Part shown: positions 61,983 to 63,381 of the stretch, one piece after another | Layout of the letters: each line of letters opens with the position of its first letter | Position numbering within the stretch: the stretch's first letter is position 1 | Assembly: GCF_004116335.1 (NCBI RefSeq) | Contig: NZ_PDKN01000010.1 | Span: 1 to 64,000, forward strand | Direction of reading: 5' to 3' | Length of the DNA stretch: 64,000 nucleotides | Source: Candidatus Marinarcus aquaticus | GTDB lineage: Bacteria; Campylobacterota; Campylobacteria; Campylobacterales; Arcobacteraceae | The notes under the pieces: generated by a model | Told to the model about the DNA's origin: nothing | What the model saw: only the letters and a program-made list of their open reading frames with translations | Database searches by the model: none | Program-made: the position numbers and the translations under genes

Positions 61983-61987
61983 TTGTG

Positions 61988-62041
61988 TTAATTTTTTGTT
62001 AACGTTTTGTTGTCTCACAATTAACGGTTGAGTGTTATAAT
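61988..62041 (+). promoter_or_regulatory. Promoter of small RNA 1 with four 11-bp-spaced TTAAC-like units
   Basis: Units begin at 61988 (TTAAT), 61999 (TTAAC), 62010 (TTGTC, degenerate) and 62021 (TTAAC), each 11 bp apart. The -10 TATAAT begins at 62036, 15 bp after the last unit. Tandem 11-bp repeats next to a -10 box are how PhoB/OmpR-type response regulators bind activated promoters. The same layout recurs base for base in spacing at 62181-62234. Confidence 0.65.
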
Positions 62042-62047
62042 TTTTTT

Positions 62048-62152
62048 ATCAATAAGTTATAGGCGTATAACTTACTGTTTAAGATAATTATATTTACGAT
62101 TTTTCATTCTCTCCCAAATAGGTACTCTCTTTTAGAGGGTACCTATTTTTTT
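62048..62152 (+). ncRNA. Predicted small RNA 1 (about 105 nt)
   Basis: Predicted from promoter and terminator. Transcription should begin at the A of ATCAATAAGT, six bases after the -10 box. A 5' hairpin has a perfect 9-bp stem (TAAGTTATA, loop GGCG, TATAACTTA at 62053-62074), then an AT-rich segment, then CTCTCCC next to the terminator. There is no ATG, GTG or TTG between the hairpin and the terminator, so it does not look coding. Its start ATCAATAAGT, length and layout match small RNA 2. No known RNA family is recognised. Confidence 0.65.
62116..62152 (+). terminator. Intrinsic terminator of small RNA 1
   Basis: A 14-bp stem AAATAGGTACTCTC/GAGGGTACCTATTT with one T-G pair, loop TTTTA, and a run of T to 62152. 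Very strong by inspection. Confidence 0.88.
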
Positions 62153-62180
62153 GCTTGTTTTTTATGTGAAAATGACCTAG

Positions 62181-62234
62181 TTAACCATTGGTTAACCATT
62201 GATTGGTTTTTTGTTAAGGCAAACAGATTATAAT
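62181..62234 (+). promoter_or_regulatory. Promoter of small RNA 2 with four 11-bp-spaced TTAAC-like units
   Basis: Units begin at 62181 (TTAAC), 62192 (TTAAC), 62203 (TTGGT, degenerate) and 62214 (TTAAG), then TATAAT at 62229, 15 bp after the last unit. Spacing is identical to the promoter of small RNA 1, although the bases between the units differ. TTAACCATTGGTTAA at 62181-62195 is also a perfect palindrome. Confidence 0.65.
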
Positions 62235-62240
62235 TTAATT

Positions 62241-62346
62241 ATCAATAAGTAACCAGTCACTTTACTTATTGAAACAGCGACTAACGTAAATTTAGACTCC
62301 CTCCTTTAATATAAAAAAGACACCCACCCTCGGGTGTCTTTTTTTT
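62241..62346 (+). ncRNA. Predicted small RNA 2 (about 106 nt)
   Basis: Starts with the same ATCAATAAGT as small RNA 1, at the same distance from its -10 box. A 5' hairpin pairs CAATAAGT (62243-62250) with ACTTATTG (62264-62271). A mostly unpaired middle follows with CTCCCTCC at 62298-62305, which could pair with GGAGG-type ribosome sites, then the terminator. There is no ATG on this strand. It appears to be a tandem paralogue of small RNA 1 that has diverged except in promoter, 5' end and overall plan. Confidence 0.65.
62313..62346 (+). terminator. Intrinsic terminator of small RNA 2
   Basis: Stem AAAAAAGACACCC/GGGTGTCTTTTTT with loop ACCCTC and T run to 62346. A textbook hairpin and U-tract. 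Confidence 0.9.
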
Positions 62347-62358
62347 GCTTTTTTTTGA

Positions 62359-62364
62359 TATACT
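62359..62364 (+). promoter_or_regulatory. -10 box of truD gene
   Basis: TATACT after a long T run, 19 bases before the ATG at 62383. The ribosome site is weak (AAAAAGAA). Confidence 0.45.
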
Positions 62365-62382
62365 TCCCTAAAAAGAACAATC

Positions 62383-63381
62383 ATGACGCGAACCTTTATC
62401 CAAGACTATACCCCACTTCATTTCAAGTTTTATCAAAACGTGGATGACTTTATCGTTGAAGAAGAACCCATTACGTTTACCAATAAAGGGAATTTTCTTA
62501 TTTTAAAAATACGAAAGAAGAATTTGGGTACGTGGGATTTAATAGAGAAGCTCTCAAAGGGACTTAACATCTATGATCATGAGATAGGTTATGCGGGGCT
62601 AAAAGATAAAAATGCAACCACCACACAATACATCTCCATACCAAGAAAATATGCCAAAGATATTAAAAAATTCAGACACAATAAAATTGAGATATTGGAG
62701 AGCTTTTTACATAAAACCAAGCTCAATATAGGGGATTTAAAAGGCAATACTTTTACGATTCGATTGCATGAAGTTAAACCAAAAATTGTACCTATGATTG
62801 AAAAAAGAGTCAAAGAGATAGCCAAGATAGGATTGCCAAACTTCTTTGGTTTTCAACGATTTGGAAAAGATATTGAACAAAACTTAGAAAAAGCACAAAA
62901 AATCATCTATGGTGACTTAAAGATACGAGACAGAAAACTGGAAAAGATGTTGATTTCGGCGTATCAAAGTGATTTCTTTAATAAATGGTTGTCCAAAAGA
63001 GTTGAGCTTTCAAAAGAGGAGTTTAAACTGCTGGATGGTGATGTGATGATGCAGTTAGACAATGATAAGCTCTTTACTCCAAAGCAAATAACACCAGAAA
63101 TCATCAAAGATTTTAAAGCACATAAAATTGTACCAACAGGGTTGTTGTGTGGAAGAAATGTCTTTAAAAGTATGGGAGAAGCCAGAAAGCTTGAAGCGCA
63201 GTTTGATGATACCTATATTCAAGAAAAAGGCTTAAGACGACCGGCGATTGTTTTTATTACAAATCAAAGTGTTTCATACAATGAAGAAGAGCAGACGTGT
63301 ACGTTGAGATTTACTTTGCCTAAAGCAGCTTATGCTACGGTACTAATAGAAAATATACTCAATACCAATATCAAACTATAA
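62383..63381 (+). CDS. truD: tRNA pseudouridine(13) synthase TruD
   Basis: A 332-residue pseudouridine synthase that converts U13 of tRNA(Glu). The active-site region reads IGYAGLKDKNATTTQYISI near residue 68 with the catalytic aspartate after GLK. NFFGFQRFGKD near 152 is the second TruD motif, and the terminal part has the TruD insertion domain. Length fits the epsilonproteobacterial form. It starts after the two small-RNA genes with its own -10 box and is convergent with the lipoprotein gene; the two genes overlap by 6 bases at their ends. Confidence 0.92.
   Translation: MTRTFIQDYTPLHFKFYQNVDDFIVEEEPITFTNKGNFLILKIRKKNLGTWDLIEKLSKGLNIYDHEIGYAGLKDKNATTTQYISIPRKYAKDIKKFRHNKIEILESFLHKTKLNIGDLKGNTFTIRLHEVKPKIVPMIEKRVKEIAKIGLPNFFGFQRFGKDIEQNLEKAQKIIYGDLKIRDRKLEKMLISAYQSDFFNKWLSKRVELSKEEFKLLDGDVMMQLDNDKLFTPKQITPEIIKDFKAHKIVPTGLLCGRNVFKSMGEARKLEAQFDDTYIQEKGLRRPAIVFITNQSVSYNEEEQTCTLRFTLPKAAYATVLIENILNTNIKL

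Follow-up and report, generated by a model that had tools for sequence, protein, structure and literature searches.

The window (the whole 64,000-nt stretch of DNA that was analysed) carries two tandem sRNA-type units in the interval from a SYLF-lipoprotein gene to truD, both on the plus strand and contained within positions 61983-62382, the features of which are collected in Table 1. Each unit comprises a TATAAT box, the common sequence ATCAATAAGT, which begins 6 nt past that box (at 62048 and 62241), a hairpin at the 5′ end, a part that is rich in C/U and unpaired, and an intrinsic terminator, and on all of these elements sequence, folding and terminator calls agree with what a sequence-only reading of the region had described. 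The predicted 106-nt RNAs fold at -27.2 kcal/mol (sRNA1; z -5.1 against dinucleotide shuffles) and -28.3 kcal/mol (sRNA2; z -6.5), and both terminators, which the search placed at 62116-62148 and 62313-62344, are among the three terminator-like sites detected, as compared with 0.7 expected. An ORF check of both units found no gene-sized ORF over either of them, in keeping with the earlier remark that they have no start codons of note, and the impression that they belong to no known RNA family was borne out by a search of the whole window against Rfam (release 15), which yielded nothing at the gathering threshold and only sub-threshold noise at loose thresholds. In the whole genome, the exact combination TATAATN6ATCAATAAGT occurs at these two sites only. 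As a family signature ATCAATAAGT was rejected, near matches elsewhere being no commoner than the control; it is simply the 5′ arm of the first hairpin.

Table 1. Features of the two tandem units upstream of truD (window coordinates)
Feature	Position	Strand	Basis
sRNA1 putative regulator-binding array, TTAAT/TTAAC/TTGTC/TTAAC	61988-62025	+	sequence, exact match to family pattern
sRNA1 -10 box, TATAAT	62036-62041	+	sequence
sRNA1, predicted transcript of ~105-106 nt	62048-62153	+	fold z -5.1; positional counterpart in sister species G001
sRNA1 5′ hairpin, CAAUAAGUUAUA-GGCG-UAUAACUUACUG	62050-62077	+	folding
sRNA1 seed, UUUUUCAUUCUCUCCCA	62099-62115	+	17-nt perfect complement of SD and AUG of Opr porin mRNA
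sRNA1 intrinsic terminator	62116-62152	+	terminator search
sRNA2 putative regulator-binding array, TTAAC/TTAAC/TTGGT/TTAAG	62181-62218	+	sequence, exact match to family pattern
sRNA2 -10 box, TATAAT	62229-62234	+	sequence
sRNA2, predicted transcript of ~106 nt	62241-62346	+	fold z -6.5; 75% identity with G001 unit 2
sRNA2 5′ hairpin, UCAAUAAGUAA ... UUACUUAUUGA	62242-62272	+	folding
sRNA2 C/U-rich anti-SD box, AUUUAGACUCCCUCCUUUA	62290-62308	+	pairs best with the start region of porin C6
sRNA2 intrinsic terminator	62313-62346	+	terminator search

A good -35 hexamer is lacking in both units. Its place is taken by four TTAAC-like half-sites with an exact 11-bp period, the last of which lies 10 nt upstream of TATAAT in both units (TTAATTTTTTG-TTAACGTTTTG-TTGTCTCACAA-TTAACGGTTGA-GTGTTATAAT in unit 1 and TTAACCATTGG-TTAACCATTGA-TTGGTTTTTTG-TTAAGGCAAAC-AGATTATAAT in unit 2), and these arrays, which the sequence-only reading had overlooked, are the most telling element of the locus. 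Both fit the array pattern with 0 mismatches (2 matches versus 0.32 expected when up to 2 mismatches are allowed). Response regulators of the OmpR/PhoB type bind to half-sites repeated in the same orientation, each taking up one turn of the helix, with the last at the -35 position; judged by its sequence, the array has the layout of sites for regulators of this type.

A genome-wide search with the pattern TTAAYN6TTAACN6TTGN8TTNAN11TANNNT, allowing up to one mismatch and using the reversed pattern as a control, returned three matches in the 2.53-Mb genome, all of them exact, and none for the control. Two are the promoters of sRNA1 and sRNA2, while the third precedes the gene for HtrA, a trypsin/PDZ protease, with genes for a response regulator of the OmpR type and for a histidine kinase coming immediately after it (all three proteins were identified by Pfam). 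All three promoters are found in the sister species (G001) as well. Altogether, the pattern is present in 79 out of 104 Arcobacteraceae genomes, as opposed to five hits for the reversed pattern over all genomes together, and the sequences found downstream of the arrays across the family fall into two main classes, namely htrA genes on the one hand and, on the other, non-coding units that reach a terminator after 70-130 nt.

A shorter version of the array pattern picked up the promoter of an EptA-type phosphoethanolamine transferase gene (G000:C3:301411-301447), in which three 11-bp half-sites, TTAAC/TTAAC/TTGAG, precede TATAAT, and the regulon may thus extend to lipid A modification. The TTAAC array resembles Bacillus PhoP boxes, but its interpretation as a Pho box was dropped, the other arrays being those of the htrA and eptA promoters. 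A different TTAAC-type array, TTAACANAAA.TTAACA..TTAATTATTAATTAACAAA, recurs in one genus (e.g. G032:C5:117743, G019:C16:306942 and G108:C2:66718), and in several genomes of genus g10 TTAAC-like boxes are also found before rpmB, which codes for ribosomal protein L28.

Judging from the array that its operon has in common with the sRNAs, the most likely activator is the CprR-like regulator encoded directly after htrA, the orthology of which to CprR we infer only from the htrA-response regulator-kinase gene order. In Campylobacter jejuni, htrA presumably adjoins CprRS. The CprRS system of that species (cj1227c-cj1226c) is OmpR-like and affects envelope genes, including htrA (PMC4518328, PMC9449129). 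No sRNA was tied to its regulon in the papers found, whereas here the array is common to the htrA operon and the sRNAs.

A second operon (L120, 1501-2559; L133, 2150-2780) codes for an LTXXQ (CpxP/Spy-like) protein, an OmpR-type regulator and a kinase, and possibly represents a second, cross-talking envelope-stress system. The region upstream of it contains a similar but degenerate array with the same 11-bp geometry, and the regulator of the sRNAs could therefore be that paralogue, or both. If so, the sRNA family and its targets would stay the same, with the LTXXQ/CpxP-linked paralogue as the activator or with sites common to both regulators. We regard this as rather unlikely: 11-bp-phased TTAAC/TTTAT half-sites do precede the -10 box of LTXXQ-regulator-kinase operons in G014/G030 and in G000, and the two regulators are ~45% identical, but these arrays are degenerate, and it is only at the htrA operon that the full sRNA pattern is found in G000 and G001.

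Collecting the non-coding units across Arcobacteraceae gave 65 distinct sequences with a median length of 117 nt (range 68-133 nt). A hairpin ahead of the terminator is present in all 63 units examined, nearly always beginning within the first 14 nt, and the first 42 nt fold with a mean z of -2.4 versus shuffles. The stem sequences vary freely, as exemplified by AAGAAG/CUUCUU, AUAAGUAG/CUACUUAU and GAGAGGGA/UCCUAUCUC. The pentamer GCGAA, often on the 3′ side of the loop, occurs in 51 of the 63 units, the expectation for a shuffled unit being 0.03; as it is frequent rather than universal, it was not required for family membership. It is absent from both window units, though outside its hairpin sRNA2 carries AGCGAC (62276-62281). 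The terminator is preceded by a C/U-rich box, which reads UUUCCUUGUGUG in four genera and UCUCCU in others; the boxes in the present genome are CUCUCCC and CUCCCUCC. No consensus structure emerged from RNAalifold on an alignment of 36 members, as their lengths differ too much, while folding of each sequence separately worked. An Rfam search of 20 family loci returned one tRNA only and no sRNA match. With the phased array of four half-sites, and with the 5′ hairpin, the C/U box and the terminator all contained within 68-133 nt, both window units have the features of the family, and the sequence evidence supports their assignment to a previously unnamed Arcobacteraceae sRNA family that is widespread in Arcobacter-type bacteria.

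The box of sRNA1 includes CAU: UUUUUCAUUCUCUCCC is complementary to GGGAGAGAAUGAAAAA, i.e. to a ribosome-binding site with AUG and lysine-type codons after it. Among the gene starts found in the genome, an exact GGGAGAGAAUGAAAAA is present at one only, that of an Opr-family porin (G000:C8), a PDB search with which returned nothing. Its predicted duplex with sRNA1 is made up of 17 uninterrupted bp (mRNA positions -8 to +9) over the SD and AUG, with a net binding energy of -25.1 kcal/mol, as compared with -10.4 ± 2.8 kcal/mol for sRNAs with a shuffled centre. Two porin paralogues, C4 and C6, which had been found through protein homology, independently of the pattern, both yielded predicted sRNA1 pairing energies below those of all 52 window genes serving as background, and the energy predicted for C6 with sRNA2 is below all 52 as well. 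The search for a perfect start-region match to the CU box of sRNA2 gave only cases with one mismatch, for instance at a ferritin-like gene. In the sister species, sRNA1 places the porin found third among 51 start regions; in other genomes porins are favoured in the pairing ranks, though not unique (median rank fraction 0.26).

In those genera that have the UUUCCUUGUGUG box, the gene starts carrying ACACAAGGAAA belong mostly to envelope proteins (20 out of 30 by hand count), including TonB receptors, OmpA, MlaA, a porin, DUF3373, a lipoprotein and periplasmic binding proteins; in genera without it, ACACAAGGAAA is found, among the hits fetched, mainly before cytoplasmic genes (aroQ, rpsB, metK). 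The main exception in the former genera is the recurrent match to a cytoplasmic enzyme, prs (ribose-phosphate pyrophosphokinase), the starts of which carry ACACAAGGAAA in two genera; in two of them prs is immediately followed by a gene for OmpA. It may be either a conserved cytoplasmic target or part of a co-regulated operon.

Anti-SD boxes do pair with many mRNAs, and it could be argued that the units are general anti-Shine-Dalgarno sRNAs, which would lower the translation of many mRNAs under stress and involve no dedicated porin programme. Every box is indeed a complement of SD sequences, moderate pairing is seen for many genes, and prs is matched repeatedly. Nevertheless, we find this explanation quite unlikely, since the perfect 17-bp pairing with one porin runs through AUG into the first codons, independent porin paralogues exceed the 52 background genes, and outer-membrane proteins predominate among matches to the 11-nt seed in the genera that own it.

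The comparison with related genomes proposed in the sequence-only reading revealed a tandem pair in the corresponding position in the sister species, where it lies between an mreB-like gene and truD, directly after the former, and without the SYLF gene. The second units of the two species are 75% identical, while the first units agree only in position, promoter array and type of C/U box. Comparison with relatives by plain DNA similarity yielded a single useful syntenic hit. Two other genera have a single unit ahead of truD, which indicates that the locus is old, and synteny with truD is maintained in g1, g14 and g15. Tandem pairs were found in at least 10 genomes from four genera, with more than two units in some genomes. 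The equal length of the two units, which had been emphasized in the sequence-only reading, holds for this genome and is not conserved, as the sister-species units measure 78 and 101 nt and the family as a whole spans the range given above. The old duplication it had suggested is weakly supported by the twins themselves, which are 59% identical here (50% when shuffled) and 57% in the sister species; those found elsewhere are 71-93% identical. Finally, of the twin-sRNA system that had been suspected, the two sRNA genes outside Rfam are supported, but twin-ness does not define it, in view of the single units before truD in other genera and of the genomes with more than two.

Unit 2 ends 36 nt ahead of the start codon of truD, which is on the same strand, and the two units might thus be read as tandem conditional terminators in the 5′ leader of truD, i.e. 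as attenuators and not as free sRNAs. This is very improbable, given that each unit has its own promoter, that in most relatives either the units are located elsewhere or truD lacks them, and that a separate TATACT (62359-62364 in the window), seemingly truD's own -10 box, lies between the second terminator and truD in both species, so that the sRNA units need not be its leader. That the units are not transcribed at all, with promoter array and terminators kept by chance, is scarcely credible, because promoter, hairpin, box and terminator are conserved over many genera despite extensive stem variation. The TruD-like pseudouridine synthase adjoining the sRNAs (62383-63381) has 332 aa; a second one, of 370 aa (G000:C1:268112-269161), is ~48% identical to it in the N-terminal part, and such a pair of TruD-like enzymes per genome recurs across Arcobacteraceae.

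The closest parallel is provided by LhrC1-5 of Listeria monocytogenes, a multicopy family induced by LisRK under cell-envelope stress, in which redundant CU-rich sites bind envelope-protein mRNA and block translation, and Hfq is not required (PMC4132741). What has been proven for LhrC is the logic of a C/U box directed at the SD of envelope-protein mRNA, in an sRNA that an envelope-stress two-component system induces (PMC4132741). Both are multicopy sRNAs, and the window units have a C/U-rich, single-stranded, SD-complementary site, while the array shared with htrA would be in line with two-component induction here. In contrast, LhrC is from a Gram-positive bacterium and targets a cell-wall adhesin, whereas here there is one C/U box per RNA and the predicted targets are porins and other outer-membrane proteins; no sequence relation was found between them, as judged by the Rfam non-match. 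In enterobacteria, the envelope-stress-induced MicA and RybB down-regulate major omp mRNAs (PMC1804206), which is reminiscent of the predicted pairing of the window sRNAs near the ribosome-binding site of omp mRNA; MicA and RybB, however, depend on a sigma-E promoter and Hfq, unlike the present units with TATAAT and an 11-bp array, no Hfq found and no Rfam match. Another sRNA arm fed by a two-component envelope-stress system is the Cpx-controlled enterobacterial CpxQ. It is released from the cpxP 3′ UTR by cleavage and depends on Hfq, while the window units have their own promoters. Within Campylobacterota, NikS of Helicobacter pylori represses several outer-membrane proteins at mRNA leaders under the control of NikR and nickel (PMC8322730). 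NikS and RepG resemble the present units in being Campylobacterota sRNAs that act without Hfq or ProQ (PMC8322730); they differ in that NikS is NikR-controlled and phase-variable, RepG targets a G-repeat, both are single-copy, and neither promoter nor structure is held in common. Arcobacter sRNAs of this kind are described in no paper found. By analogy, the sRNA circuit is best read as comparable to MicA/RybB and, more closely, to the LisRK-driven LhrC; in neither case was homology in sequence detected.

On the basis of the arrays, folds, terminators, conservation and complementarity, we consider it probable that these are trans-acting, base-pairing sRNAs of Arcobacteraceae which are activated by an envelope-stress regulator and repress outer-membrane proteins, here Opr porins, without Hfq. 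In such a scheme, cell-envelope stress would activate the OmpR/PhoB-type response regulator of a two-component system, which would bind the four 11-bp-spaced half-sites standing in for the -35 box and turn on htrA together with the sRNAs. The 5′ hairpin of each sRNA would be protective and its C/U-rich box exposed, with the intrinsic terminator at the end; the box would pair with the SD/start region of outer-membrane mRNAs, in this case those of Opr-family porins, and block their translation. With the array common to the htrA operon and the sRNAs, one signal would result in production of the HtrA protease/chaperone and put a stop to the synthesis of porins burdening the envelope. Repression would be Hfq-independent: no Hfq was found in four Arcobacteraceae genomes, with a positive control search, and its absence in C. 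jejuni has been noted (PMC3847290). It is also conceivable, though unlikely, that the GCGAA hairpin loops dock an RNA-binding protein replacing Hfq in a large Hfq/ProQ-independent Campylobacterota regulon, with the C/U box being freely retargeted in each genus.

Campylobacterota lack Hfq, and the sRNA family described here offers, for a whole bacterial family, a testable answer to the question of how they shut off outer-membrane proteins under envelope stress, to which no answer was found in the searchable papers. It supplies a promoter code defining the regulon, about 65 sRNAs and a predicted 17-bp duplex at a porin start codon, and its GCGAA loops, together with a seed that changes between genera, make it a good system for the study of Hfq-free target finding and retargeting.
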